Source: Draconibacterium orientale
GTDB lineage: Bacteria; Bacteroidota; Bacteroidia; Bacteroidales; Prolixibacteraceae
Assembly: GCF_000626635.1 (NCBI RefSeq)
Contig: NZ_CP007451.1
Coordinates: 1,860,001-1,924,000 of the forward strand
Reading direction: 5' to 3'
Length of the DNA stretch: 64,000 nucleotides
The notes under the pieces are model-generated. The model saw only the letters and a program-made list of their open reading frames with translations. It was not told the origin of the DNA and did no database searches. The position numbers and the translations under genes were made by a program. Below, one piece after another: positions 28,764 through 44,457 of this stretch; positions within the stretch are counted from its first letter, which is position 1; every line of letters starts with the position of its first letter.

Positions 28764-30980
28764 TTAACCCACTACTTTCAGCATAAATAATGCACTATCG
28801 TACTGATCGGCTATTTTTAGTTCCACTCCAACATTCATCAGGTAGTCGGCCGAAAATGTTTGTCCGTCGCCCCAAAAACGGCTTTTTCCATTTTTATTGA
28901 TTTCTTTGATCTGATAGTTTTTATTCGGATCCAATCCGTTCAGTTTTATCGTTGGATAAATACCCCGCAAATGCGGCTCTAAACTAAAAGTATAAAACAC
29001 TGCTGACTCCTTGCTTTTTGCTACAAATAGTTGCGATGCCCAGCCACCTTCATCGTATGGTGATTTTAAGCGATACAAATCACCGTGTGTTACCAAAGGC
29101 CGTATAAACTCTTTGTAATTTTTAATGGCTTCTTCAGCAAAAATGCGATCGTCTCCCTGAATATCTTTTGGTTGCAGTTCCATTCCCAAACGGCCTGTCA
29201 TTGCCACATCAAAACGAAATTTTAGCGGTGTCATTCGTTGCGTTTGGTGGTTCGGACTGGTTGACACATGCGATGCTGCTCCAACAGGTGGATAAATCAA
29301 TGTTGTTCCATATTGAATGAATATTCGCGACAAAGGATCGGTATTATCAGAAGTCCAGTATTCGTTGTGGTATTTTAATGCTCCGTAATCCAGGCGGCCA
29401 CCTCCCGACGCACAATCCTGAATCACAAAATCAGGATATTTGGCACGAATCCGATCGTAAACAGAATATAATCCCCGGGTGTAAGCTACCCAAAAATGCG
29501 TCTGTTCTGAGTCTGATAAGTAAGTGGATCCTGCCTGTTCTACATGACGGTTGGCATCCCATTTTACGTACTCAATTCCCGGATGTGTTGTAAGCAGGCT
29601 GTCGAAAACATTGTAGACAAAATCCTGTACTTTTGGGTTCGACAAGTCAAGCAACAACTGGTTTCGCCAGGTAATTTTTTCACGACCGTTACTTTGTACG
29701 ATCCACTCCGGGTGATTCTCTGCCAGTTCACTTTCCGGATTCACCATTTCCGGCTCAATCCACAGTCCAAATTTTAAGCCTTTCGAATGTGCATAATCGA
29801 TTAGGTAATCCAGTCCCCGTGGTAACTTTTTGGTATTCGTTTGCCAGTCACCCAATCCTGCATCATCATTATTTCTTGGGTATTTATTACCAAACCAACC
29901 ATCATCCAGAACGAAAGTTTCGATGCCCATTTCTGCTGCGTCATTCATCATTCCGGACAGTGTATTTTCATCAAAAGTAAAGTACGCGCCTTCCCAGCTA
30001 TTAAGCACGATATCATAGATTTCGGTTCCTCCAGTCATTCCATATTTGCGTCCCCAATCGTGTAAATTTCGCGAAACCTGACCGCGTCCTTCGTTGCTGA
30101 AAGTGTATATCATTTCGGGAGTGGAAAAACTTTCACCCGGTTTCAGACTCCAGGCCGAAAGGAAAGGATTAATACCGCTTACTACATTCAAGGTTCGCCA
30201 TTCATCAACCTGAAAAGCCAGTCGGTAATTCCCCGACCAGGCTAACGCTCCGCCATAACATTCGCCGGAATTCTCCAATGAAGGATGATTCAAACTTAAA
30301 ATAAACGAGGCATTTTCTGTCTGTGTGGTACGAACACCTTTTTTACATTCAATTACTTTAATTCCATTTTCCAGTTTCTCTTCGGCCACGCTCATTTCAC
30401 CGGCCCATGCACCGTAAAAATGCGTCAGATAGTAACTCTCGGCTTTCAGTGGCAGAAACGATGAGGCAAAATTGTTCAGTTTTACCGCACCATTTTCGTT
30501 GTTTTCAATTACAGTCCACTGCGTAATCACATCCTCATTAAAATAGGCTTTGGTGTGCAATTCTACGGCAAAATCGTAAACACGGTCTTTTAAATGAATT
30601 ACAGTTTCTGTAAAATCTGAATTACTAATAGATTCAACGGTTTCAAAAGCCAGTTCTGTATTTAGGCTTCCATCGGAATGAATAACAGCCAAAGCCGGCT
30701 CGTTAATATTTCCCAATCCAAATGTTGGATATGCTTCGTACGAAAAATCGCGGTCGGTATCCGGTTTTGAATATGCTTGCTGCACTCTGAAATTCGCAGC
30801 TGCTTCTACTTTCTTTCCGTAATATTGAAAGATGAGTCGACTACTTTGATCAACGGCATAAACCAACGAGGTTGATTTAGTATTTATTTCGATTACTTCC
30901 GAGTTTTGTGCTAATGACGCGGAGCCGAGCAAAACGATCTGCAATAGGCTGAAAAGTATTGTTTTGATATAGTTATTCAT
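28764..30980 (-). CDS. GH36 alpha-galactosidase
   Basis: A 738-residue protein with a signal peptide (about 1-24). It has the N-terminal beta-supersandwich, a catalytic barrel and a C-terminal beta domain. The nucleophile Asp is in YVKWDANRH and the acid/base Asp in DCASGGGRLDYG; also characteristic are FVLDDGWFG and LKFGLWIEPEMVNPES. It removes terminal alpha-1,6-galactose, as in melibiose, raffinose and stachyose. Next to the GH32, fructokinase and SusCD genes this points to raffinose-family oligosaccharides. It is the last gene of the operon, 10 bases after GH32. Confidence 0.93.
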   Translation of the reverse strand: MNNYIKTILFSLLQIVLLGSASLAQNSEVIEINTKSTSLVYAVDQSSRLIFQYYGKKVEAAANFRVQQAYSKPDTDRDFSYEAYPTFGLGNINEPALAVIHSDGSLNTELAFETVESISNSDFTETVIHLKDRVYDFAVELHTKAYFNEDVITQWTVIENNENGAVKLNNFASSFLPLKAESYYLTHFYGAWAGEMSVAEEKLENGIKVIECKKGVRTTQTENASFILSLNHPSLENSGECYGGALAWSGNYRLAFQVDEWRTLNVVSGINPFLSAWSLKPGESFSTPEMIYTFSNEGRGQVSRNLHDWGRKYGMTGGTEIYDIVLNSWEGAYFTFDENTLSGMMNDAAEMGIETFVLDDGWFGNKYPRNNDDAGLGDWQTNTKKLPRGLDYLIDYAHSKGLKFGLWIEPEMVNPESELAENHPEWIVQSNGREKITWRNQLLLDLSNPKVQDFVYNVFDSLLTTHPGIEYVKWDANRHVEQAGSTYLSDSEQTHFWVAYTRGLYSVYDRIRAKYPDFVIQDCASGGGRLDYGALKYHNEYWTSDNTDPLSRIFIQYGTTLIYPPVGAASHVSTSPNHQTQRMTPLKFRFDVAMTGRLGMELQPKDIQGDDRIFAEEAIKNYKEFIRPLVTHGDLYRLKSPYDEGGWASQLFVAKSKESAVFYTFSLEPHLRGIYPTIKLNGLDPNKNYQIKEINKNGKSRFWGDGQTFSADYLMNVGVELKIADQYDSALFMLKVVG

Positions 30981-30990
30981 GTCTTATATT

Positions 30991-32568
30991 TTACCAGATG
31001 GAATTTATATTGACCGCTTTCGCGCTTATTAGTGTTATGGATTGCCCATTCGCAAAAACCTTCAATTTGCTGAAAGGTTGAGAGTTGAAAAAGATCTCGG
31101 TCATTACCAGATCACCGCCATCCACAAAAACTTCGGCAGATGCGGCATCCACAAAAATTTCAAGTTTTACAGTCGATCCGATTTTGTATGGAGCAACCGA
31201 AATTCCTGAGAACTTATCTGAAAAGCTCATGTCACCTGATTGGTTTCTATCAAACTGAAATTGCTTGTCAGCAGTTGAATAGCTGAATTTGACATTTTCG
31301 CCCAGTTCATTTTCAAGCAGAATTCCAAATGATTCAGGCAGCGTTTCACCCACCTGTAATTCCAGCGTTAGGTGACTCTGATTCAAGGTTACTTCTCCCA
31401 AATTCAATGTCATTTCTCCTGAAATCTCAACAGTTTCAATGTCTGCTTTAGTTGAGTTGTCTGTTATCAGCTCTGTTTCTTTTACAGGAGTTGATTTCAA
31501 AACATATTGATCATTCTTTTTAACCAACGAAAGTGTGCGGGGCAAAGTCATGGCACTGCGCCATTCTTCAGTTGGCACAACATTCGCATATGCCCAGTTA
31601 CTCATCCAGCCCAGGAAAATCCTGCGGCCATCTTCTTTTGGCACATCGCTCCAGGTTACGCCGGCATAATTATCGCGACCCCAGTCTACCCAACTCGTGT
31701 CTTTCGAGTCAGCAATAAACTGGTGTCCATCAAAGTCGCCCAAAAAGTATTGCGTTCCGGAACCACCATTCGGCCCACCGGGATTGATATTCACGATCAA
31801 CACCCATTTCGTTTCATTTGTTCCCTCAACTTTCAAAGGAAATAAATCAGGGCATTCCCAAACACCGTCGTGTGTGCCGGCATCAATGCCAAAATCACTT
31901 TCGTGTTTCCAGTTTTTCAGATCATCAGAAGTATAAATCTGGACATGATCGTGAGCAGAAAGTACCAGGTTCCATTGCTGAATTTCTTCATTCCAAATCA
32001 CATTCGGATCACGAAAATCCTGGTTACCATCATTCGGAATAACCGGGTTTCCATCATATTTTGTCCAGCTTCGTCCTTTATCCAGGCTGTAGGCAATGGC
32101 TTGCGATTCAACATCAACTCCACCGGCCTCTACAATTTTTGGATCGTGGTAAGTAAATATTGCTACCAATGGCGGATTTTCTGCTGAGCCAAATCCGGTA
32201 GTATTATTCCAGTCGACCACAGCACTTCCGGAGAAAATGAAGCCCAAACTGTCGGGATATAATGCAATGGGCATGTGTTGCCAGTGCATCAGATCGGTGC
32301 TTATGGCGTGTCCCCAGTGCATAGGTCCCCAAACTGTACTGTCGGGGTAATATTGATAGAATAAATGGTATTCACCATCGTAATAAACCATCCCGTTGGG
32401 GTCGTTCATCCATGCCGAATCCGGTGAGAAATGGAATTGCGGGCGGTACTTTTCGGTAAATGGTTTTGCCTCTTCTATAGGTTCTGTCGTTTTGGTTGGA
32501 CCTGAAGAACAAGCCACTGCGAAAAACAGTAGTAGCATGGCCAGGATATTAAAATTCTTGTGGTTCAT
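30991..32568 (-). CDS. GH32 fructan hydrolase (levanase/inulinase/invertase type), lipoprotein
   Basis: A 525-residue protein with a lipoprotein signal (Cys20). All three GH32 catalytic signatures are intact: WMNDPNG (nucleophile Asp56), the FRDPNV transition-state Asp and WECPDLF (acid/base Glu). A C-terminal beta-sandwich follows. It cleaves beta-linked fructose from fructans or sucrose-containing oligosaccharides; linkage specificity (2,1 or 2,6) is not readable. Fructose released would pass to the MFS transporter and fructokinase encoded upstream. The neighbouring GH32-like gene at 32599 is a diverged paralogue that has lost the catalytic residues. Confidence 0.94.
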   Translation of the reverse strand: MNHKNFNILAMLLLFFAVACSSGPTKTTEPIEEAKPFTEKYRPQFHFSPDSAWMNDPNGMVYYDGEYHLFYQYYPDSTVWGPMHWGHAISTDLMHWQHMPIALYPDSLGFIFSGSAVVDWNNTTGFGSAENPPLVAIFTYHDPKIVEAGGVDVESQAIAYSLDKGRSWTKYDGNPVIPNDGNQDFRDPNVIWNEEIQQWNLVLSAHDHVQIYTSDDLKNWKHESDFGIDAGTHDGVWECPDLFPLKVEGTNETKWVLIVNINPGGPNGGSGTQYFLGDFDGHQFIADSKDTSWVDWGRDNYAGVTWSDVPKEDGRRIFLGWMSNWAYANVVPTEEWRSAMTLPRTLSLVKKNDQYVLKSTPVKETELITDNSTKADIETVEISGEMTLNLGEVTLNQSHLTLELQVGETLPESFGILLENELGENVKFSYSTADKQFQFDRNQSGDMSFSDKFSGISVAPYKIGSTVKLEIFVDAASAEVFVDGGDLVMTEIFFNSQPFSKLKVFANGQSITLISAKAVNINSIW

Positions 32569-32598: not shown

Positions 32599-34071
32599 TT
32601 AAAATTCAGTTATTGATCCTGTCTGTAAATTAACTTTTCCTTGCTCGCCAAATAATTGAAGCTGCACTGAATTGCTTTTAAAATCGAATTTCTTTGATAC
32701 CGAAACCAATCCGTTCATGGCAAATAATTCTGCCGAATTTTGGTCGATAATCAAGGTCATATCCAATTGTGGCTCGTTGGTTACATAAGGCGCGTAATAG
32801 AAACCATCCCAGCTATCAGGGAAATCGCGCTGTATCGAAGGATCGGCGATATAGAAATATCTTCGCTCAGCCTGGTATCCCATAATTAACTCCTTGCCTT
32901 CCTTTGTTTTAATAGTGACGCCAAAAGATTCCGCCATACCCAGATATAAACGACTGTTAACATCAAATGTCAGATCGATTCGTGCTGGCAGATTCAAATT
33001 CTTTTCTATCGATTTGCCATCTGATAATTCAGTTTCGTTAATTGTTTCCGTATTCAGTTTCTCATTGGCTTGTACGGGGCCTGCAATTAAATAGTAATCG
33101 TAGAATTTTTCTTTCAACGTCAACTTTCGGGGAAGCGAAAATTGAGTTGGGGAATTATTGGGGATACTAAATTTTTCGTAGATGGAACTGTATAAAGTTC
33201 CGATTAAAACAGGTGATTTGGCAACCATCCGGTAATCGGATAAAACAACGGCCTGGTAAAGATCGCTTCCATGATCGATCCATTTGGGTTTATTGTGTGA
33301 TGCCTGGTAAACATAGCCATCGAAATTACCAACAAAATACTGAACACCGCTGCCCTCATTGGGCGAGCCGCTATCGGCACTGATAAAAAGTACCCACTTT
33401 GTTTCGTTGGTCTCAGCCATTTCCATCGGGAAAAAATCAATGCTTGTCCATTGCCCTGATTTCAAGGCAACCTCATCACCAAACCGACTTAAGTACTCCC
33501 AGTTTTTCAAGTCCGGAGATGAATAAAAGCGCACTTCATAACCTGAAAGAGTCAACATCATCCAGTTCTGTGTTTCGTCGTTCCAAAACACTTTCAGGTC
33601 TTGAATGGGTTCATAAAAATCGGTAAGAACAACTGTGTTTTCGGTGTCCTGTTGCCACGTTGAGCCATCATTAGCACTATATAAAACTGTCAATTTCCCG
33701 GGTTGGTCAGCAACTGTTGCGAAAGCGATTAGTGCTGAAACGTCGACACTGTATTCAGTTGTTTGACTCCAATCCTTTACGACGGTTTTTATATTTTGAT
33801 TTCCAGCTTCTTCCGACTCAAATTTTGTTGGTTTATTGCTCCAATTTACCAAGTCCTTGCTTTCAGCTAGTCCACACTTTTTTTGCCCGTCAACAGTGCA
33901 GTCGAAAAACAATTGATAACTGCCTTCTGCATAGATTAAAGCAATCGGATTCTCTAGCACTGAATCTTTCAGACTGAAATGTAAAGAATCAGCAACTTCC
34001 TGTTTTTTGCTTTCTGTGCATCCCCAGAAAACAACCAATATCAGCAATAAAATTGTGGCCGGACTTTTCAT
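32599..34071 (-). CDS. GH32-fold lipoprotein lacking catalytic residues (candidate fructan-binding protein)
   Basis: A 490-residue protein with a lipoprotein signal (Cys18). It aligns along its length with the GH32 enzyme at 30991, for example NETKWVL, GSGVQYFVGNFDG and SSPDLKNWEY. At the catalytic sites WMNDPNG becomes VLENPIA (nucleophile Asp to Asn41), FRDPNV becomes IQDLKV (Asp kept, Arg and Pro lost), and WECPD becomes WTSID (acid/base Glu to Thr). Hydrolysis is therefore not expected. The gene is immediately downstream of susD, where such loci normally encode a SusE-like surface glycan-binding lipoprotein, so a binding role is the best inference. The frame is intact with no sign of decay. 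Confidence 0.85.
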   Translation of the reverse strand: MKSPATILLLILVVFWGCTESKKQEVADSLHFSLKDSVLENPIALIYAEGSYQLFFDCTVDGQKKCGLAESKDLVNWSNKPTKFESEEAGNQNIKTVVKDWSQTTEYSVDVSALIAFATVADQPGKLTVLYSANDGSTWQQDTENTVVLTDFYEPIQDLKVFWNDETQNWMMLTLSGYEVRFYSSPDLKNWEYLSRFGDEVALKSGQWTSIDFFPMEMAETNETKWVLFISADSGSPNEGSGVQYFVGNFDGYVYQASHNKPKWIDHGSDLYQAVVLSDYRMVAKSPVLIGTLYSSIYEKFSIPNNSPTQFSLPRKLTLKEKFYDYYLIAGPVQANEKLNTETINETELSDGKSIEKNLNLPARIDLTFDVNSRLYLGMAESFGVTIKTKEGKELIMGYQAERRYFYIADPSIQRDFPDSWDGFYYAPYVTNEPQLDMTLIIDQNSAELFAMNGLVSVSKKFDFKSNSVQLQLFGEQGKVNLQTGSITEF

Positions 34072-34149: not shown

Positions 34150-35892
34150 TTAATAACCAACATTTTGTTCGTACAAACCTTTGGTAAAGTCGATTTCACG
34201 CTGCGGAATCGGGAAATATTCATCTCTTCCGGCAGTAAAATGTGCTTCGTTCAGGAAGTCTTTTCTGGTTTTCTCTTTTTCCAGGTAAGCATTTAAAACA
34301 GGCTCTGCAATTCCCCAGCGAACCAGGTCGAAGAAACGCGGGCTTTCCAAAGCAAATTCCAAACGACGTTCCCATTGTAAAGCTTTGCGCGCGTTATCCT
34401 GTGTCCATGCTAAATTCGATCCGTCGTATTCCGAAATCATGTAATTTGATGGTGCAGTACCATCGGCAAATCGAGTTTTGTCGGTACTTTCTGAAGCACG
34501 TTTACGTACCTCATTGATCAGCGGACGGGCCATATCTTGCTGTCCAAGTTCGATGTACGCTTCAGCCTGCATCAACAACACATCGGCATAACGAATAATA
34601 TCGATGTTTTTTGATACGCCCATAAAAGGACCTTGCTTTTTGTAGCACGAACAATCGGCAGCCTGCTGTTCTTTCATACTTTGGAAGTAACCGTAAACAC
34701 CCGGATCGCGTACCCAGCTGTTGCTGAAAATATAAGCATCTTCGTTGCGATATTTGTACGGGTGACCGTCGATACCAACAGTGTGGTCGATACGCGGGTC
34801 AACAGGCACACCATCAGGAGTAATATCGGCAGCACTCAGCTCAACATCGTTAAAAGTGTCGAACTTTGGTAAACCATTGGCATCTGTGGCAAAAGCATTC
34901 ACCATATTCTGACTTGGCTGGTGGAATCCGCAACATCCGTATTGTGGCGCACCGTGTGGGTAGTTCAAACCGGTCTCAAAGTTCAAACGGCCGGCAGTAG
35001 TTCCGTCGCTAATCGAGAATTGGATGGCAAAAACAGACTCAGGACCATTGTCATATCCGCCTGTAAAGTTCTCGCCAAAATCGGCTTGCAAACTGTATTG
35101 ACCTGATGAAATTACCATTTCGCAAAGGTCAACCACTTCCTGCAAACGGCTTTGATTAATATTTACAACCTGGTTGTTCTCATCCTGTTCGTAGGCCTGA
35201 TACAATCTCAGTTTTGCCAGGTAGGCAGCGGCAGCATATTTATTTGCTCTACCAACCTGCGATTGAGATTCCGGCAGATTATTCATTGCAAATTCAAAGT
35301 CTTCTGCGATTTTGTTCCACAATTCGTCGTTTGAATATTCGCGGTTTGAAGTTTGAAGGATCTCTTCGTTGCTCAGATTTTCGTCGATATATGGAACGTA
35401 TTTGAACAATACTTTCAGCATAAAATGCGAATGTCCTCTAAGGAAACGAGCTTCAGCAATTCTTGTCTGACGCAGGTCAAAGTCTTCATCAGTCAATTCA
35501 TTTAGTGTACGCAATGCCGAATTGGCACGCGAAATTGCACGGTAATAATTTTCCCAGGTGTAAGGCAAACCAGCCAACCAACTTTGGAAAGGTTGCGTAA
35601 GGTTGTATTGCTCGTAAAAGTTGTAAGGCTCAACGTCCGAAACACCACCGCCTCCTTTGTAAGCATCGTCAGAACGTACACTACCGTAAACCCACATGCT
35701 GGCAATAGGGCCAATCATATCGTTATTACCAATTCCGGCATACGCCGCGGTAACCAAACCTTCAGCGCCTTCGGCCGTTGGGCTTCCGGCAGAGATAAAT
35801 CCTTGCGGCTCAGTCTCCAGGTAATTATCGCACGAAACAGCGAACAGCGTTATCAGTGCAATTATATATGTTTTAATATTTTTCAATTTCAT
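34150..35892 (-). CDS. SusD/RagB family glycan-binding lipoprotein
   Basis: A 580-residue protein with a lipoprotein signal (FAVSC, Cys at residue 21) followed by DNYLETEPQG, the typical SusD start. TPR-like helices carry ARFLRGHSHFMLKVLF. The C-terminal part has DVLLMQAEAYIELGQ, WERRLEFALESPRFFDLVRWG and ends YFPIPQREIDF. It forms the lid of the SusC transporter on the cell surface and binds the target glycan, here probably fructan or a fructosyl-galactoside. It is 20 bases downstream of susC. Confidence 0.96.
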   Translation of the reverse strand: MKLKNIKTYIIALITLFAVSCDNYLETEPQGFISAGSPTAEGAEGLVTAAYAGIGNNDMIGPIASMWVYGSVRSDDAYKGGGGVSDVEPYNFYEQYNLTQPFQSWLAGLPYTWENYYRAISRANSALRTLNELTDEDFDLRQTRIAEARFLRGHSHFMLKVLFKYVPYIDENLSNEEILQTSNREYSNDELWNKIAEDFEFAMNNLPESQSQVGRANKYAAAAYLAKLRLYQAYEQDENNQVVNINQSRLQEVVDLCEMVISSGQYSLQADFGENFTGGYDNGPESVFAIQFSISDGTTAGRLNFETGLNYPHGAPQYGCCGFHQPSQNMVNAFATDANGLPKFDTFNDVELSAADITPDGVPVDPRIDHTVGIDGHPYKYRNEDAYIFSNSWVRDPGVYGYFQSMKEQQAADCSCYKKQGPFMGVSKNIDIIRYADVLLMQAEAYIELGQQDMARPLINEVRKRASESTDKTRFADGTAPSNYMISEYDGSNLAWTQDNARKALQWERRLEFALESPRFFDLVRWGIAEPVLNAYLEKEKTRKDFLNEAHFTAGRDEYFPIPQREIDFTKGLYEQNVGY

Positions 35893-35912: not shown

Positions 35913-38900
35913 TTAGAATGAAACATTTACACCAACGGAGAAAGTTCTCGGAATTGGTATTGCATTTACGTCGGTACGCTCCGGATCCGGTCCCTGAAAT
36001 TCATTGGTTTTAATCCAGAAAAGGTTTTCAGCCATTACGTAAAAGCGCAGTTTGTCCATATGAATTCTTTCCGTTACGTTTGATGGCAGTGAGTAACCTA
36101 ACTGCACATTACGCAATTTGAAATAAGAAGCATTTACGTTCAAATAGCTTGAAGTACGTGTTTCGTTGTTGCTGTCAGACAATGTTAAAGCCGGTACGTT
36201 TGAATCCGGATTTTGTGAAGTCCAGGCGTCGAAAACACCGGGTCCAACGTTGTCGCGGCCACGAATAAAGTCGTTGTAGAAAGTATAAGGATCGTAACCG
36301 GTTTTTCCGGCAACACCCGAACCAAATATCGAAAGATCGAAATCTTTGTAATTCATATCAACGCGCATGCTATACTCCAATTTTGGAAGTAATGTTCCCA
36401 GAAATTTCTGGTCGAGCGAGTTAATTTCACCGTCATCATTCAAATCGGCCCAGCGAATACGCCCCGCAGCAGCACCAACCTGGCTGGCGTGTGCGTCAAC
36501 TTCCGACTGGCTTTTGAAAATACCGTCGGCAACATATCCGAAAATTGAAAGCTCAGAATGACCAAGAACGGTTTGTTCCGAGTTACCCGGATAAGCGGTT
36601 CTAACTTCTTCAGGAAGTTCAGTGATTTTATCGGCAAAGTGGCTGGCACTACCTGCAACTTCGTAAGAGAAATCGCTGTTCACTTGTTTTCTGTAACTCA
36701 ACGCAAATTCCCATCCTGTATTTTTCTTGGTGGCTCCGTTCAGGAACTGTAATTGTCCTTCACCTAAAGCCGAAGCTACCGGTGGCTGAATCAAAATATC
36801 GGTTGTTTTACGTGTATACCAATCGAATGCTCCTACCAACTGACTATCGAAAAATCCGAAATCGATACCCAGGTTCAATTCATCTGTTGTTTCCCATCTC
36901 AAGGCAGGGTTTCCGGCTTGCACAGAAACAAAACCAGAAGGCAGGTTTCCTGAATCCTGACCATCTAAAGCATAAGCTGAACCAACATTCCAGTAGTCAT
37001 CAAAAAAGTCGTTGTGGAATATACCATCAACCTGGCTGGCCACTGCTCCGTAACGAGGTTCAAACAATCCAAGACTGGCAAAATCACCAACATCCTGGTT
37101 ACCAACACGACCAACACCGGCACGGAATTTCAGGTTCGAAAGCTTTTCCATGTCTGCCATAAATGATTCCTGGCTCAAACGCCATCCGAAAGTAGCTGCA
37201 GGGAAGAAGCCGTAACGGTTATCAGCTCCGAATCGTGAAGAACCATCGCGACGTAATGTCAAGGAGGCTAAAAAGCGCTCGTCATAGTTATAATCGATTT
37301 TACCGAATTGAGAGAATAAACGACTGCTGGTGGCAGTTCCAAAGCTGTTACCATTGCTGGTTCCGGCGCTCAGCACAAAGAAGTCTTCTGTTTGTGTTGA
37401 AAAACCTTCTTTGTAACCTCTAAAGTCCTGGAAATTGTCGCTAACAGCTTCAATACCAAACAGGAAGTTAAACTTGCTTTTGTCCAGATTAAGTTGATAT
37501 TGCGCTGTATTCGACCAGGTTACGCTGGTAAAATCGCTGTTATAGATACTTAAATTGTTAACCGATCGTGCAATAAAACCATTGGTAAATGCAGGCTCGA
37601 TATCCTTGTCTTTCACCATGGAATAATCGATACCTAAAGTCGTGCGTAAAACCAGGTTCTTAACAGGTTCAACCTGTGCAAAAACACTTCCGAACAAGTA
37701 TCGTCTGTTGGTATTGTCCCACCGGTTGATATCCTGCATCATAACCGGGTTATTACGGTCGGAATAACCTGATCCGAGAGGGCCACCATAATTGCCGTTT
37801 GAATCGTACAACGGAATTGTTGGAGCCAAAGTAATTGCCAGTCCAGGCGTTGGAGCACTACCAAGGTCGGGAGTTTCCAAAGTTTCGTTCGACGAAACAA
37901 CCTGTGCATTGATACCAAACTTCACCTTGTCATCCAGCATGCTGGTTTGTCCGTTAATACGGGCTGTAACACGGTCGTAGTTGGTATACTTCAGCATACC
38001 GGTATTTTTGATGTAACCCACATTCATTAATACCGATGACTTTTCCGTTCCACCGGAAACAGTCAGGTCGTTATTGATTACAAAACCAGTTTCATAAGTT
38101 GCATCCTGCCAATCGGTATCGCCCGCGGGAACGTTCATATCTCCTCCAACATAAGGCTGAACGGTTACGCCATTCAGAACAGGATTGTTATAATCACCAT
38201 TCCAGTCGAAGTTGTATATTTCGCCGTATCCGCTCGTTGGATCAACACCATCGTTTACCGATGCCTGCCACAAAGCCCGGCCACGATCAACAGCATTCAG
38301 CATATCATATCGTTGCGATTTTTCGCTTTGAACCGAAAAGTTAGAGTTAAACTGAACATTCACTTCGCCTTTTTTATCCGATCCGTTTTTGGTGGTAACA
38401 ATTACAACACCGTTTGATGCACGTGCTCCATAAATTGAAGAAGCTGACGCATCTTTCAATACCTGCACAGAAACAATTGAACCGGCGCTCAGTCCCTGAA
38501 ACACCTCTGGTCTTTTGGTTGGTACTCCATCGATAATATACAATGGGTTGTTATCTCCCAGCGTATTTACTCCACGAATAAGAATTCGACTGCTGGTTGC
38601 ACTTGGAGTACCGGTTTTTTCAATATAAAGTCCCGGAACATGTCCTTGCAAAGCCTGCATCGGGTTACCCGAACTTAAACTCACATTTTCAATTGCGTCC
38701 ATTTGAACCACTTCAACGGCACCCGTTAAATCGGCTTTTCGCTGAACGCTATAACCAACGGCTACAACTTCTGCCAAACCAATGGTTTCGTCCTCCATGC
38801 TAATATTGATGGTTGTTCTTCCTGATACTTCTATTTCCTGTGATTTCATTCCAATAAAAGAAATCTGCAGTACCGCATCGGCACTCGCTACCTCGATAGT

Positions 38901-39101
38901 GTACACACCATCAACATCGGTAATGGTACCGTTCGTTGTTCCTTTTTCAACAATTGTTACACCAGGCAATGCCATGCCCGAGGCGTCTTTCACAGTACCC
39001 GAAACCGAAATTTCCTGGGCAAATGCGATTGTTGAAAACAAACTAAGCAGAATGAAAAACATTCCCTTAGTCGCATTTTTAAGTTTGATCCTTTTTACCA
39101 T
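35913..39101 (-). CDS. SusC/RagA family TonB-dependent outer-membrane transporter
   Basis: A 1062-residue protein. After a signal peptide come a CarboxypepD-like domain (VSGTVKDASGMALPGVTIV), the TonB-box region, a plug domain (LIRGVNTLGDNNPLYIIDGV with VLKDASASSIYGARASNGVV) and a 22-strand type barrel. No N-terminal STN domain is seen, so the locus should be controlled by the hybrid two-component system rather than by a sigma/anti-sigma pair. It imports oligosaccharides bound by the partner SusD. It starts 12 bases after the fructokinase stop. Confidence 0.96.
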   Translation of the reverse strand: MVKRIKLKNATKGMFFILLSLFSTIAFAQEISVSGTVKDASGMALPGVTIVEKGTTNGTITDVDGVYTIEVASADAVLQISFIGMKSQEIEVSGRTTINISMEDETIGLAEVVAVGYSVQRKADLTGAVEVVQMDAIENVSLSSGNPMQALQGHVPGLYIEKTGTPSATSSRILIRGVNTLGDNNPLYIIDGVPTKRPEVFQGLSAGSIVSVQVLKDASASSIYGARASNGVVIVTTKNGSDKKGEVNVQFNSNFSVQSEKSQRYDMLNAVDRGRALWQASVNDGVDPTSGYGEIYNFDWNGDYNNPVLNGVTVQPYVGGDMNVPAGDTDWQDATYETGFVINNDLTVSGGTEKSSVLMNVGYIKNTGMLKYTNYDRVTARINGQTSMLDDKVKFGINAQVVSSNETLETPDLGSAPTPGLAITLAPTIPLYDSNGNYGGPLGSGYSDRNNPVMMQDINRWDNTNRRYLFGSVFAQVEPVKNLVLRTTLGIDYSMVKDKDIEPAFTNGFIARSVNNLSIYNSDFTSVTWSNTAQYQLNLDKSKFNFLFGIEAVSDNFQDFRGYKEGFSTQTEDFFVLSAGTSNGNSFGTATSSRLFSQFGKIDYNYDERFLASLTLRRDGSSRFGADNRYGFFPAATFGWRLSQESFMADMEKLSNLKFRAGVGRVGNQDVGDFASLGLFEPRYGAVASQVDGIFHNDFFDDYWNVGSAYALDGQDSGNLPSGFVSVQAGNPALRWETTDELNLGIDFGFFDSQLVGAFDWYTRKTTDILIQPPVASALGEGQLQFLNGATKKNTGWEFALSYRKQVNSDFSYEVAGSASHFADKITELPEEVRTAYPGNSEQTVLGHSELSIFGYVADGIFKSQSEVDAHASQVGAAAGRIRWADLNDDGEINSLDQKFLGTLLPKLEYSMRVDMNYKDFDLSIFGSGVAGKTGYDPYTFYNDFIRGRDNVGPGVFDAWTSQNPDSNVPALTLSDSNNETRTSSYLNVNASYFKLRNVQLGYSLPSNVTERIHMDKLRFYVMAENLFWIKTNEFQGPDPERTDVNAIPIPRTFSVGVNVSF

Positions 39102-39113
39102 AATCAGATTAGT

Positions 39114-40046
39114 TTAATTAATTTGAATATTATTTCTTTCGATAGTTGGTTGGTCATTCGATAGGATTTCCTCAATTTCATCCATGTCGTATTTTGGAGT
39201 TGCACCGGCTTTCGATGCCACAAATGCGCCGGTTGCACAAGCAAAAGCCAATGCGTCGGCAGATTCTTTTTTATTTAACAGAGAGGCAATTAGTCCGGCA
39301 AGAAATGCATCGCCGGCACCAACTGTATCCACTGCATTTACTTTAAAACCGGGGTGTTCGTAGAATTTGCCGTTGCAATACAACAAAGCACCTTTTTCGC
39401 CTTTGGTTACACATAACATTCCGATGTTATAGTGTTTTACAAACCATTCCATGAGCTTGTGCTCGTCAGAACTGGGGCGGTTGTACCATCCTGCAAAAAC
39501 CTGCAGTTCTTCGTCGTTGAGTTTTACCACATCCGTTTTTTCCAGAAGCTTTTCAACTACTTCCTGCGAATCATATGGCTTACGAAAATTTACATCAATC
39601 AATTTCAGTCCATCGTAATCCAGCAGATTCATCAGTGTTTCGCGGGTTAAAGGATTGCGCGAAGCCAGTGATCCGTAAATCAGCAAACCTGCCTGCCTGG
39701 CCTTTTTCATTAGCGAATCAGTTAGTTGAATATTATCCCAGGCTACGGGTTCACAAATTTCGTAGGTAGCGTTGTTGTTTTCATCCAAATGCACCAGTAC
39801 TTCACTGGTAGGCAGATTATCATCGGTTTGAATGTATGCGGTAGACATTCCCGAATCTTCAAGGAATTTTTTTAGTTCTGCTCCCGGTTCGTCGTTTCCA
39901 ACACTGCTGGCAATGGTAGCATCCAAACCGATAGCATTGAGGTGAAGCGCCACATTCATGGGAGCACCTCCGGCTTTCGCGCCCGATGGCAAACGATCCC
40001 AAAGCACCTCACCAAAACACAATATTTCGTTGTTCTTAATTTCCAT
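39114..40046 (-). CDS. PfkB-family fructokinase
   Basis: A 310-residue ribokinase-fold protein. It has the first PfkB region GAKAGGAPMNVALHL and the second DTVGAGDAFLAGL, with the catalytic Asp and anion hole. Converting fructose to fructose 6-phosphate is the expected reaction given GH32 in the operon; ribokinase-like alternatives are less likely in this context. It is between the MFS gene (12-base gap) and susC (12-base gap). Confidence 0.92.
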   Translation of the reverse strand: MEIKNNEILCFGEVLWDRLPSGAKAGGAPMNVALHLNAIGLDATIASSVGNDEPGAELKKFLEDSGMSTAYIQTDDNLPTSEVLVHLDENNNATYEICEPVAWDNIQLTDSLMKKARQAGLLIYGSLASRNPLTRETLMNLLDYDGLKLIDVNFRKPYDSQEVVEKLLEKTDVVKLNDEELQVFAGWYNRPSSDEHKLMEWFVKHYNIGMLCVTKGEKGALLYCNGKFYEHPGFKVNAVDTVGAGDAFLAGLIASLLNKKESADALAFACATGAFVASKAGATPKYDMDEIEEILSNDQPTIERNNIQIN

Positions 40047-40058
40047 GTTTGTTTAGTA

Positions 40059-41402
40059 TTATTTGATTCGTTTTTTCATTTCCTGTTGTATTTCCTCCAA
40101 CGACTTGCCTTTGGTTTCGGGAAGAACTTTCCAGGCAAAGAAGAAGTGCAGCACCATCATTGCCGCGAAAAAGCCAAAGGATATACCGCCACCGACAGTG
40201 TTGTTCAATACCGGGAATCCCCAGATAAGAGCTGCGGCAAAAATCCAGTGGGTAAAACTTCCCAGCGCCTGTCCCTTTGAGCGTACTTTATTGGGGAATA
40301 TCTCGGAAATTACGACCCAAAGCACAGCTCCTTGTGAGAAGGCAAAAAAGGCAATGAAACCCATCAGATAGATCATTACTCCGTAACCGCCAAAATCGGA
40401 GTAGTTATTGGTAAAAAATGACTTTGAAAGCAGACCCAGGAAAATGACCATCCCAACTGATCCGGCCATAAGAAGTGTTCTTCGCCCGTATTTATCGATG
40501 AGGAAAAGTGCCACGAAAGTGAACACCAAATTGGTAGCTCCTACTGAAATAGACTGAAGTAGCGAAGCATTGGTTCCAAATCCTGCCATTTCGAATACCC
40601 GTGGAGCATAAATCATAATAGCATTTATACCCGCCAACTGGTTAAAGGCAGCAATCAAAAAGGCAATCATTATTGGAAAACGGTAAGCTTTTACAAACAA
40701 CTTTCCGTGACCCATAGCTTCCTCTTCTTCTACCGATTGTTTCACAATGCGTACTTCTTCCTTTGGATTTTCAGCCTTAATGCGCTGAAATACAGCCAAT
40801 GCCTCATCGGTATGTCCCTGATTTACCAACCAACGCGGACTTTCAGGAACCAGGTTCAGCAATAAAAAGAAGGTTGCAGCGGGAATAGCTTCCACACCGA
40901 TCATCCAGCGCCACGATCCACTCTCGAAAATATTTGCCAAAAGGTAATTTACAGCAAAAGCCAGAAAGATGGCAGTAACCACAAAAAACTGGTTTAACAA
41001 AACCAGCTGTCCGCGCTTTTTTGCAGGCGATATTTCGGCTATAAACATTGGGGTAACCACCGAAATACAACCCAAAAGAACTCCGGTTATAAAACGGCAG
41101 GCCAGCAACATTCCCCAATTAATGGCAAATGCACTTCCCAAAGTTGATAGTGCAAAAAGACCGGATAATACGATTAATGATTTGCGGCGCCCAAATTTTT
41201 CAGCCGGTTTACCTATTATAACAGTACCAACGATTGTACCCATAATGGCAACAGCAACTGTAAATCCCAGCCAAAAACTATTTAAGTCGAATAAGGTTTC
41301 CAGTTGCGATGTGGTACCCGACATCATAGCAATGTCGTAACCAAAAAGAAAGCCGCCAAGAGCGATTATTATGGCAACTGAAAATACGTTTTGTGTCTTC
41401 AT
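40059..41402 (-). CDS. MFS sugar porter (fructose/hexose:H+ type)
   Basis: A 447-residue inner-membrane protein with 12 predicted helices. Sugar-porter signatures: GGFLFGYDIAMMSG, GRRKSLI, PESPRWLVNQGH, QLAGINAIMIYAPRVFE, DKYGRRTLL and the C-terminal PETKGKSLEEIQ. It would bring the monosaccharide released in the periplasm, probably fructose, into the cytoplasm for the kinase. It is the first gene of the operon, divergent from the hybrid sensor across 268 bases that should hold the regulator's binding site. Confidence 0.92.
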   Translation of the reverse strand: MKTQNVFSVAIIIALGGFLFGYDIAMMSGTTSQLETLFDLNSFWLGFTVAVAIMGTIVGTVIIGKPAEKFGRRKSLIVLSGLFALSTLGSAFAINWGMLLACRFITGVLLGCISVVTPMFIAEISPAKKRGQLVLLNQFFVVTAIFLAFAVNYLLANIFESGSWRWMIGVEAIPAATFFLLLNLVPESPRWLVNQGHTDEALAVFQRIKAENPKEEVRIVKQSVEEEEAMGHGKLFVKAYRFPIMIAFLIAAFNQLAGINAIMIYAPRVFEMAGFGTNASLLQSISVGATNLVFTFVALFLIDKYGRRTLLMAGSVGMVIFLGLLSKSFFTNNYSDFGGYGVMIYLMGFIAFFAFSQGAVLWVVISEIFPNKVRSKGQALGSFTHWIFAAALIWGFPVLNNTVGGGISFGFFAAMMVLHFFFAWKVLPETKGKSLEEIQQEMKKRIK

Positions 41403-41670
41403 TTCGATTCAGAATTATTGGTTTAAAACTCTGAATCAAAGGTATGGGGGCAGCCGTTCTTCTGCTTTAAACAATGTTACCGAGTGTTAAAAACATGTAA
41501 CATTATCAGCCTAAATATCAATACGTTTATACTTATGTAACATCATTATCAACTATGATACACGTTAAAAAATTAAATGGCAGTTTTCTTTCACGTTATC
41601 ACGTAAATTGAGACATTGGTTATTTGAAATTTATTACTTTCACAAAAGTATATTAATCAGACTAAGCTAT

Positions 41671-44457
41671 ATGACGAAGAAACTAACGATACTATTTCTA
41701 TTCGTACTCCTATTCTCCTTCTTTAGTCTTTCGTCAAAAGAAAAATACAAAATTGGATTTTCGCAATGCACCACAGGCGATGACTGGCGCAAATCGATGC
41801 ACCGCGAAATGATGATAGAACTGGCTTTTTACCCCGATTTTGAACTGGTAATTAAAGACGCCAACGACAATAGCGAACAACAAATAAACGACATCAGGCA
41901 ATTGCTGGATGAAGAAATCGACCTTTTAATTGTTTCTCCCAACGAATCGGAACCAATTACACCAATTGTTGAAGAGGTATATAATAGCGGAATTCCTGTT
42001 ATCGTTATCGACAGGCAAATAGCCTCGGAGGCTTATACTGCCTATGTTGGTGCCAACAATTATTTAATTGGAAAAGAAGCCGGAGATTATGCCGTAAAAT
42101 TGTTAAATGGCAAAGGTAAAATCGTTGAAATTACCGGGCTGCAAGGTTCATCTCCTGCAATTAACAGGCACAATGGTTTTATGGAAGTGATTTCGCAATA
42201 TCCCGATATTGAGTTGGTTGCTTCAGAATCGGGCAAATGGAATTATAGCGACAGTAAAACGGTTATGCAAAATTTTCTTGACCAAAAACTGGACTTCGAT
42301 CTTGTTTTTTCGCATAATGACCGGATTGCCAGAGCAGCTTACGAAATAATTGATGCAAATAACATTGGTGAGAAATTTATCCTGGGTATCGATGGATTAT
42401 TGGGAGATGACGGTGGAATAGAAGATGTGATCGATGGTAAAATTGATGCTACCTTTCTATATCCTACCGGTGGTGCTGAGGCCATTCAACTGGCTGCTAA
42501 AATTCTGAACAAGCAGCCTTTTGATCGTATCAATATTCTTGAAACGGTGGTTATTGATAACAATAATGCCAAAATATTAAAACTTCAATACGAGGCAGTT
42601 GACGATCTGCAGGGAAAAATAGAAGACCAAAAATCCGTTCTTGAAAACCAGATCGCCCGTTTTAAAAGTCAACGGAGTTTTTTAATAGTTGTATTGGTTT
42701 TGCTGGCAGCCATTGTTATTCTGGTTATTCAAACCTTCAGAGCCTATCAAAACAAACGTGCGGCCAACCAAAAACTGGAGCTTCAAAAACTCGAAATAGA
42801 AAAAAGAAATCAGGAAATTATAAAACAAAGAGACCAACTTATTGAAGTTTCGGAAAAACTGGAGGAGGCCACACAAACCAAACTTCGCTTTTTCACCAAT
42901 ATGTCGCATGAGTTTAGAACGCCTCTTACACTCATCATTGGTCCGTTAGAGGATATGATCGAATCAGCAGATATTCCTGAACGTTTTAAGAAGCAGGTGT
43001 CCATGATGCACCAGAATTCACTTCGCCTGCTGCACATGATTAACCAGCTGATGGATTTCAGGAAAATTGAAAACAATAAAATGCAGTTGCAAGCCACCAA
43101 TTACGACATTGTTGGTTTTCTTAAAGATATTGTAATGCCCTTTTATGATCTGGCGGAGAAAAAGCATATATCAATTGTTTGGGAAGCAGAAAAAAGTCAT
43201 TTAAATGCATGGTTCGACCTTAACAAACTTGATAAAGTTATATTCAACCTGCTCTCAAATGCCATTAAATTCACTCCTGTTAATGGCACTATTCAAATTA
43301 CTCTAAAAGTAATTAAACCTTTAGCAAAGAAGATTTGGGATGAAGAAGTTGAAATTAAAGTTTCCGATACCGGCAATGGAATTCCAACGGATCAGATTGA
43401 CCATATTTTTGATCGTTTTTATCAGGCAGAAAGCTCACGTGGTTTTATGGGAACAGGACTGGGACTTTCGCTTTCGAAAGAATTTGTTGACCTGCACCAC
43501 GGAGAAATTGAGGTTAAAAGCAACATAGGAGAAGGAACCACTTTCACTATTCATTTGCCAACTGGAAACGCCCATCTTAGCGCATCTGAAAAAATTGAAA
43601 CACCGATAAACGAGACGAAAAAGAAGCAGATTCAACGAAACAACGAAATCCATATCAATCCGGTTTTAGATACCGGAGAAAAGAAAATTGAGACAAATTT
43701 TGAGGAAAAACCGACGGTTCTTTTGGTTGAGGATGAGAACGATGTTCGTGAATATATAAAAGACAGTTTGTTTAATCATTATCATATTCTGGAAGCAGAA
43801 AATGGAAGACTGGCGCTGGATATAATCAGGGAAAACGAACCCGACCTTATTGTTAGCGATATTATGATGCCGAAAATGGATGGGCTGGAACTTACCCGCA
43901 CTTTAAAAACTGATATAAAAACCTGCCATATTCCAATCATCCTTCTAACAGCAAAAGCTTCGCAAGAGCAGAAATTTGAAGGTCTGGAAGAAGGAGCCGA
44001 TTCATACATTCCGAAACCTTTTAACAGCAGGCATCTGCAAATTAGGGTGAAGAAATTGCTCGAACTCAGAAAGAAAATGCAGGAACGCTACAAAGGTCAG
44101 CTACTTATTGCCGAAGACGACAAAGATCTTTCACGCCTTGACAGAAAATTCCTGAACAAGATTTCGCAAATTGTGGAAGAACACCTTGAAAAAGAGGAAT
44201 TAACAGTTGAAGAACTGAGCCAGTTATTAGGTCTTTCGCGCGTTCATGTTTACCGAAAAATTAAAAAGCTGACAGGAATGTCAGTCAGCGAATTTGTGCG
44301 CTCCGTGAAATTGAAACTCTCATTGAACCTGATTAAAACCAACGGTAAAACCATTGCTGAAATTGCCTACGAAGTTGGTTTTTCGTCACCATCGTATTTC
44401 ACAAAATGTTTTAAAGCTCAATTTGGGATATCGCCGAGTGAATTTGGGAAAAATTAG
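41671..44457 (+). CDS. Hybrid two-component system regulator with periplasmic sugar-binding domain
   Basis: A 928-residue protein. I start at ATG 41671, which gives a signal sequence (MTKKLTILFLFVLLFSFF); the longer frame from 41608 adds 21 residues before it. Residues about 25-310 are a periplasmic binding protein of the LacI/ribose type (KIGFSQCTTGDDWR). A membrane helix (about 333-352) and a coiled coil precede the kinase (NMSHEFRTPLTLI; GTGLGLSLS), a receiver (VSDIMMPKMDG, Asp) and an AraC helix-turn-helix (GFSSPSYFTKCFKAQFG). The architecture is that of the fructose-sensing BT1754 of Bacteroides thetaiotaomicron, so fructose as signal is a fair inference. It should activate the divergent operon. 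Confidence 0.95.
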   Translation: MTKKLTILFLFVLLFSFFSLSSKEKYKIGFSQCTTGDDWRKSMHREMMIELAFYPDFELVIKDANDNSEQQINDIRQLLDEEIDLLIVSPNESEPITPIVEEVYNSGIPVIVIDRQIASEAYTAYVGANNYLIGKEAGDYAVKLLNGKGKIVEITGLQGSSPAINRHNGFMEVISQYPDIELVASESGKWNYSDSKTVMQNFLDQKLDFDLVFSHNDRIARAAYEIIDANNIGEKFILGIDGLLGDDGGIEDVIDGKIDATFLYPTGGAEAIQLAAKILNKQPFDRINILETVVIDNNNAKILKLQYEAVDDLQGKIEDQKSVLENQIARFKSQRSFLIVVLVLLAAIVILVIQTFRAYQNKRAANQKLELQKLEIEKRNQEIIKQRDQLIEVSEKLEEATQTKLRFFTNMSHEFRTPLTLIIGPLEDMIESADIPERFKKQVSMMHQNSLRLLHMINQLMDFRKIENNKMQLQATNYDIVGFLKDIVMPFYDLAEKKHISIVWEAEKSHLNAWFDLNKLDKVIFNLLSNAIKFTPVNGTIQITLKVIKPLAKKIWDEEVEIKVSDTGNGIPTDQIDHIFDRFYQAESSRGFMGTGLGLSLSKEFVDLHHGEIEVKSNIGEGTTFTIHLPTGNAHLSASEKIETPINETKKKQIQRNNEIHINPVLDTGEKKIETNFEEKPTVLLVEDENDVREYIKDSLFNHYHILEAENGRLALDIIRENEPDLIVSDIMMPKMDGLELTRTLKTDIKTCHIPIILLTAKASQEQKFEGLEEGADSYIPKPFNSRHLQIRVKKLLELRKKMQERYKGQLLIAEDDKDLSRLDRKFLNKISQIVEEHLEKEELTVEELSQLLGLSRVHVYRKIKKLTGMSVSEFVRSVKLKLSLNLIKTNGKTIAEIAYEVGFSSPSYFTKCFKAQFGISPSEFGKN

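Follow-up and report, generated by a model that had tools for sequence, protein, structure and literature searches.

A GH32-fold protein without two of its catalytic residues as a putative accessory subunit of a fructan-type SusCD importer

The gene next to susD in a putative fructan PUL of Draconibacterium orientale encodes a protein of the GH32 fold, here termed pseudo-GH32 (pGH32), in which the catalytic nucleophile and the acid/base residue have been replaced and which, judged by its residues, is inactive. On balance, pGH32 probably serves a fructan SusCD importer as a lipid-anchored accessory subunit that has no catalytic role and works through its C-terminal beta-sandwich. This reading is favoured because catalysis has been lost, the protein is tied to one SusCD lineage, it stands in the slot of a surface glycan-binding protein (SGBP), and its sandwich is held under tighter constraint. 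It is often unclear where the additional lipoproteins of SusCD importers come from; here the origin of one SusCD-linked lipoprotein can be traced to a member of an enzyme family, in which catalysis was lost once and which has stayed beside a single transporter lineage across 23 genomes.

The fructan-type locus

The window, the whole 64,000-nucleotide stretch of DNA that was analysed, carries pGH32 at 32599..34071 on the minus strand (all coordinates are those of the window, and features lie on the minus strand unless otherwise stated). An open frame of 490 codons, with no internal stops, runs from an ATG at 34071 to the stop at 32599 and encodes a lipoprotein-like protein of 490 amino acids. 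It belongs to a co-directional row that reads, in order, an MFS sugar porter (40059..41402; TIGR00879, 3.2e-106), a fructokinase-like PfkB sugar kinase (39114..40046; PF00294, 2.5e-43, with fructokinase as the best NCBIfam match, below cut-off), a SusC-like TonB-dependent transporter (35913..39101; TIGR04056, 7e-238), a SusD-like lipoprotein (34150..35892; PF07980, 8.8e-40), pGH32, a lipoprotein-like GH32 with an intact triad (30991..32568; MNDPNG, FRDPNV and VWECPD), and a GH36 alpha-galactosidase-like protein (28764..30980; PF02065, 1.8e-117). Divergent from this row, on the plus strand, is a hybrid two-component regulator (41608..44457) with a periplasmic sugar-binding sensor (PF13407, 1.7e-46), HisKA, a response regulator and an AraC HTH; the B. 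thetaiotaomicron fructan regulator BT1754 is reported to bind fructose (PMC11501099).

The PUL of the window has the gene set of the fructan type, namely SusC, SusD, a fructokinase-like kinase, a porter, a GH32 and a hybrid two-component regulator, and across 23 loci with pGH32 the SusC is present in 22, the kinase in 21, the MFS porter in 20 and the regulator in 18, in counts that include truncated contigs or stretches. By gene content the pGH32 PUL is of the fructan type, fructan being the putative substrate. The GH36 gene is an optional neighbour, present in 11 of the 23 loci, which suggests raffinose-type sugars as a possible substrate of some of these PULs.

A GH32 fold with lost catalytic residues

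Both Pfam profiles of the family match pGH32 above their curated cut-offs (Glyco_hydro_32N, 1.1e-34; Glyco_hydro_32C, 2.1e-9), and together with the AlphaFold2 model (pLDDT 89.2, pTM 0.88) they give a predicted five-bladed propeller followed by a C-terminal beta-sandwich. The best PDB match of the model in Foldseek is the exo-inulinase 1y4w (TM 0.80, E 1.2e-30). Because the Pfam GH32 models score well above their cut-offs, a domain-based count would call pGH32 a fructan-degrading enzyme, and the protein is in this respect an annotation warning for domain-based GH32 counts. A preliminary description of this DNA had taken fold, frame and signal to be intact. For the predicted fold and the frame this stands; the signal (residues 1-18, 34018..34071), which ends in LVVFWGC, is lipoprotein-like with its cysteine but is not a textbook lipobox. 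A lenient home-made pattern finds a lipobox-like Cys in 23/23 clade members.

The replacements are evident from alignment with the adjacent GH32, to which pGH32 is 29% identical. The nucleophile motif WMNDPNG has become VLENPIA, with Asn41 (33949..33951) in place of the Asp, and the acid/base motif WECPD has become WTSID, with Thr209 (33445..33447) in place of the Glu. In the transition-state stabiliser motif, FRDPNV has become IQDLKV, so that RDP reads QDL: Arg is changed to Gln and Pro to Leu, while the Asp is kept as Asp158 (33598..33600). Both catalytic exchanges and the altered stabiliser motif had been claimed in the preliminary description and proved correct, and the nucleophile and the acid/base are both replaced in all 23 pGH32 loci, which speaks against a chance change in one genome. 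In the conservation set of 22, from which locus L101 was left out as a near-copy of L086, the nucleophile Asp and the acid/base Glu each occur in 0/22, whereas the stabiliser motif retains its Asp in 17/22, its Arg in 2/22 and its Pro in 0/22.

Origin of pGH32

The 23 pGH32s form one clade (SH-aLRT 99) in a tree of 112 GH32s. These were drawn from 157: sequences that were neither inactive nor SusD-adjacent were thinned where more than 75% alike, and the other sequences from 14 loci, most of them of other phyla, were taken out. The 13 pGH32s used in a careful tree of 55 GH32s are likewise one clade (support 100/99). The active paralogue proposed earlier does adjoin pGH32, with its triad intact, but the accompanying proposal, that pGH32 arose by duplication of this neighbouring enzyme, is unsupported because the adjacent GH32 groups elsewhere and the forced grouping is rejected. 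Forcing pGH32 into a clade with the group of this neighbour costs 64 log-likelihood units (AU p 2.3e-16), in a test whose eight neighbour-type rows were picked after the trees had been seen and in which long branches are in play. Instead, pGH32 would have descended from a GH32 fructosidase other than the adjacent one; its active site would have been lost once, and the protein then fixed beside one SusCD lineage.

The closest relative of the clade is a GH32 of locus L223 (L223_9064), in which the stabiliser region is altered and the catalytic Asp and Glu are kept. Next closest are intact-triad GH32s of other fructan PULs, those of L049 and L052, where DUF4960 holds the slot next to SusD, and that of L224, where the slot holds an unclassified gene. 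The L223 gene (L223:9064-10623, genome G105), like those of L141-L143, has SDAIG, CKYP and WEYVD for NDPNG, RDP and ECPD, so that the stabiliser Asp is lost while nucleophile and acid/base remain; the L223 copy sits in a DUF4960-type PUL. The L223 type is a possible half-way form toward pGH32.

Distribution in relatives

Searches covered 101 relatives' genomes, 140 genomes of the family, and genome contigs by two peptide patterns, with neighbourhoods of at most 21.5 kb. Loci L077-L085, which overlap or duplicate others, were dropped from the counts, as were GH32s of fewer than 400 or more than 640 amino acids; gene neighbours were ORFs of at least 150-200 amino acids, a limit that smaller genes escape; one example is a small ORF that separates SusD from GH32 in L195. 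Within this scope, 23 genomes carry pGH32 behind a SusC-SusD pair of one and the same kind; they include Draconibacterium, Sunxiuqinia, Mangrovibacterium, two Plebeiobacterium species (Marinilabiliaceae) and G073, from another family of the order. A profile search of 393 genomes of the order and 395 of the phylum (E<=1e-70) found pGH32, among the loci read, only in G073 and in the window's own genome; misses are possible because at most three or four candidates per genome were scored.

Other altered GH32s were met along the way. A partial GH32-like ORF (L309:49-1029, G436) has WHKAT for WECPD and lies directly upstream of an intact GH32, at the point where its contig begins. In another GH32 (L074:9724-11172, G059) all three catalytic motifs are altered (MGEPTG, AIAPRV, FRGSPE), and no SusD was classified in the stretch read; this inactive GH32 falls outside the pGH32 clade and was left out of the counts.

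Linkage to SusD and the place of the SGBP

In 23/23 loci pGH32 adjoins susD, across gaps of 8-115 bp except in L215 (340 bp), L047 (496 bp) and L218 (1153 bp). A tree of 81 SusDs, which left out those of L076, L106, L108 and L234, unites the 23 SusDs beside it in a single clade (SH-aLRT 98). A census of SusDs independent of pGH32, taking all those at E<=1e-150 in the 140 family genomes, found 40. Beside the close SusDs (75-100% identity) pGH32 is the next classified gene in 20 of 21, the exception being G119, where the SusD gene runs off the end of its contig, whereas beside the distant SusDs (49-53% identity) the next gene encodes DUF4960 in 18 of 19 and pGH32 in 0/19. A DUF4960 member matches the SGBP of the levan utilisome (8a9y_T), and in an independent screen a DUF4960 protein is reported to have bound levan (PMC10076258). 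From the census, therefore, pGH32 occupies the place of the SGBP in sister PULs, as the preliminary description had surmised.

The one remaining distant SusD (G044:C18, L267:4191-5696) is followed by another GH32-like gene, with an apparently altered acid/base (DISCADFF); this gene keeps FDPNG and has low scores against the models used. Several Draconibacterium genomes also have another fructan PUL (L049-L051, L053-L056) with a DUF4960 protein and a 753-amino-acid GH32, and in L049, the one scanned, this GH32 has a Por secretion tail.

A home-built model found DUF4960 in 0/23 pGH32 loci over the fetched stretches, some of them cut by contig ends, and in pGH32 itself Pfam yields GH32 domains only. 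The SusDs nearest outside the pGH32-linked clade also have no DUF4960 next to them. SusD is followed by an intact GH32 in L196, L197 and L198, by a small ORF and then GH32s in L195, and by a BT1760-like GH32 and then a weak DUF4960 match in L199. Because the nearest outside SusDs lack DUF4960 as a neighbour, its loss probably preceded or accompanied the entry of pGH32 into the slot, and the "replacement" of DUF4960 is a comparison between lineages, not one demonstrated event.

Selection and a shift of constraint

Among 10 Draconibacterium orthologues, compared by pairwise Nei-Gojobori dN/dS for pairs with dS of 0.05-1.5, pGH32 is under purifying selection, with a median dN/dS of 0.14 (36 pairs). 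The medians are lower in the active neighbour, at 0.081 (37 pairs), and in SusD, at 0.033 (36 pairs). The constraint is unevenly distributed. In the first propeller blades (residues 31-155, 33607..33981) it is relaxed, dN/dS being 0.203 in pGH32 and 0.026 in the active neighbour, and pair identity across the 10 species 0.67-0.70 and 0.91-0.96, respectively. It is also looser than in the neighbour in residues 156-235 (0.075 versus 0.023), residues 286-335 (0.172 versus 0.071) and the last sandwich strands, residues 456-490 (0.287 versus 0.154), and it equals that of the neighbour in the propeller stretch of residues 236-285 (33217..33366; 0.062 versus 0.065, mean pair identity 0.93 versus 0.91). 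Tighter constraint than in the active enzyme is confined to residues 361-455 of the C-terminal beta-sandwich (32707..32991), with dN/dS of 0.039 versus 0.123 and mean pair identity of 0.87-0.93 versus 0.78-0.87. R404, Y405 and Y426, in the sandwich, are specific to the clade. The region borders for dN/dS and entropy were set around the identity result, and the pairs are interdependent, so that p values are nominal; entropy in wider sets, of which the active one is more diverse than that of pGH32, shows the same regional pattern. The loosening of one end together with the tightening of the other is not as decay or plain relaxation predict, and the opposite patterns of pGH32 and its active neighbour name the region to test.

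Function and alternative explanations

As an accessory subunit of the importer, pGH32 would stand where sister PULs carry the DUF4960 SGBP, with the C-terminal beta-sandwich, and no longer the pocket of the propeller, as its working surface. The sandwich would either hold fructan chains for SusD or dock on SusC, SusD or the active GH32, such that substrate reaches the transporter. A narrower version, in which a dead fructosidase replaced the levan-binding SGBP in one SusCD lineage and captures the chain or hands it on by way of a new binding face on the sandwich, is put forward tentatively. What counts against the main reading is that most GH32 pocket residues are lost, that only residues 361-455 are under tighter constraint, that neither the C-domain of BT1760 (PMC6560043) nor the impaired BT1284 (PMC11180146) is reported to bind a glycan, and also that the post-cysteine signal of pGH32 is less acidic than that of SusD or DUF4960.

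The strongest competitor, though on the whole an unlikely one, makes pGH32 a scaffold or regulator of the adjacent active GH32, which it would steady, anchor or activate via the C-terminal beta-sandwich, itself binding no fructan. Of the 22 loci with a visible gene downstream of pGH32, 17 have an intact GH32 as the next one classified and four more have it further on, and most of the sandwich is the most constrained part of pGH32. There are precedents: Nin88, a defective invertase of plants, reportedly has an indirect activating effect on active invertases (PMC3713406), and BT1284 is described as having no measurable glycan binding (PMC11180146). Against such a partnership, pGH32 follows the SusD lineage, whereas the position of the GH32 varies, with GH36 in between in L048, L086 and L101 and three genes in between in L219. 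In L058, moreover, the GH32 of the pGH32 locus (L058:7460-9126; G073:C126:21480-22931) has one in-frame TGA, whereas pGH32 is open there.

A second competitor, about which we are somewhat more doubtful, concerns location and overlaps with the first because a scaffold may be periplasmic: pGH32 might be a lipoprotein of the periplasm rather than of the surface, assisting in an accessory role once import has taken place. Acidic residues after the lipoprotein cysteine direct export to the surface, and by this rule, which is uncalibrated for the pGH32 family, the mean number at positions +2 to +6 is 0.74 for pGH32 (23/23 readable), well under the 1.85 of SusD (20/23) and the 2.50 of DUF4960 (4/8). 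The value nevertheless exceeds that of the neighbour GH32 (0.00; 17/21), and the SusD-next slot is held in sister PULs by a surface protein type.

The preliminary description had a probable fructan-binding protein in mind; read directly, the old active-site funnel would still hold fructan, with cleavage gone. The kept (predicted) fold and the SGBP slot would suit this, and catalytically dead mutants of BT1760 are reported to bind levan (PMC7618045; PMC6560043). The pocket itself speaks otherwise. One hundred columns conserved in at least 95% of 99 active GH32s were compared, these enzymes having been picked by the NDP motif, so that the invariance of Asp56 is by construction. In 20 columns that we take to be active-site motif positions, the active residue is kept in a median of 2% of 22 pGH32s, against 84% for the other 80 (p 9e-6, nominal since columns are interdependent). 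In neighbour numbering, the pocket residues W53, N55, N58, F112 and W325 occur in 0/22, whereas the scaffold residues W96, W220, W255, D295, D299 and R344 occur in 22/22; among the 20 motif columns, P57 (21/22), N324 (19/22) and D187 (17/22) survive, and the first blades rank with the regions of highest variability in the protein. The old pocket is therefore not what selection keeps.

BT1760 offers a residue-level comparison. Its W318, the change of which to Ala is reported to have weakened levan binding 25-30 fold (PMC7618045), aligns with S307 of pGH32. With most of the active-site motif residues gone, including this equivalent, the old pocket is an unlikely fructan-binding site, and we regard the funnel as improbable. 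BT1760 also has a secondary levan site at some distance from its catalytic centre, where a change of W217 had a 6-fold effect and F243A is described as without effect on binding (PMC7618045); in a distant alignment W217, F243 and Y437 correspond to K204, E239 and a gap in pGH32, a comparison that tells little because the active kin of pGH32 also lack these aromatics and mostly have His or Thr, and Gly, in their place.

More improbable still is catalysis by pGH32, whether in a rebuilt active site or of some other kind. Such an enzyme could draw on Asp158 and Asp212 (each kept in 17/22), on acidic replacements in three members (L219 has Glu at the nucleophile position, and L220 and L221 have Asp at the acid/base position) or on the clade-specific acids D370 (18/22) and D437 (19/22), which are located in the sandwich. 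Yet neither original residue persists in any member, the replacements differ (Asn, Ala, Ile, Tyr, Met, Lys, Ser or Glu at the nucleophile position; Thr, Asp, Ala, Leu or Asn at the acid/base position), and most of the surrounding pocket is gone. A decaying pseudogene, finally, can be dismissed: pGH32 evolves faster than SusD, but dN/dS is far below 1 and falls to its lowest in residues 361-455, the frames are open and the lipobox-like Cys is present in 23/23, and the orthologues have neither a dN/dS near 1 nor frequent stops.

Relation to known systems

PULs are already known to encode inactive hydrolases, and plants to have inactive GH32s. Among the open-licence papers listed on inactive GH32s and inactive PUL hydrolases, none describes a protein of GH32 descent in the place of the SGBP. 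The occupant of that slot in the levan utilisome of B. thetaiotaomicron, BT1761 (SGBP-lev, DUF4960), resembles pGH32 in that its lipoprotein gene lies next to susD in a fructan PUL, and the two PULs share fructokinase, sugar porter, GH32 and hybrid two-component regulator. The folds are unrelated, BT1761 being described as two Ig-like domains with a ThuA-like levan-binding domain (PMC7618045), whereas pGH32 is a GH32 propeller with a beta-sandwich. BT1760 (GH-lev), the surface GH32 endo-levanase, is like pGH32 a GH32-fold lipoprotein of a fructan SusCD system, but it is active.

With regard to the sandwich, known examples point in both directions. The C-domain of BT1760 is reported not to bind levan, its proposed role being stabilisation of the protein, whereas the C-terminal beta-sandwiches of levan fructotransferase and of SacC (CBM66) bind levan (PMC6560043). 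The latter are, as in pGH32, beta-sandwiches C-terminal to a GH32 catalytic domain; the likeness is one of architecture, and levan binding has been demonstrated for them (PMC6560043).

Plant defective invertases, such as tobacco Nin88, share with pGH32 a GH32 fold without invertase activity and have a role attributed to them (PMC3713406). They are defined by an intact triad with loss of sucrose-stabilising residues, and the triad is described as never affected (PMC3713406). pGH32 lacks two or, in some members, all three of these residues and falls outside this definition. The nearest analogue of pGH32 is the catalytically impaired GH18-like BT1284, which, like the B. faecium GH18-like proteins, is an impaired hydrolase encoded in a SusCD locus together with an active enzyme of the same family and conserved across species (PMC11180146). 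It differs in belonging to GH18 and to an N-glycan PUL, and in the glycan-binding result cited above (PMC11180146).
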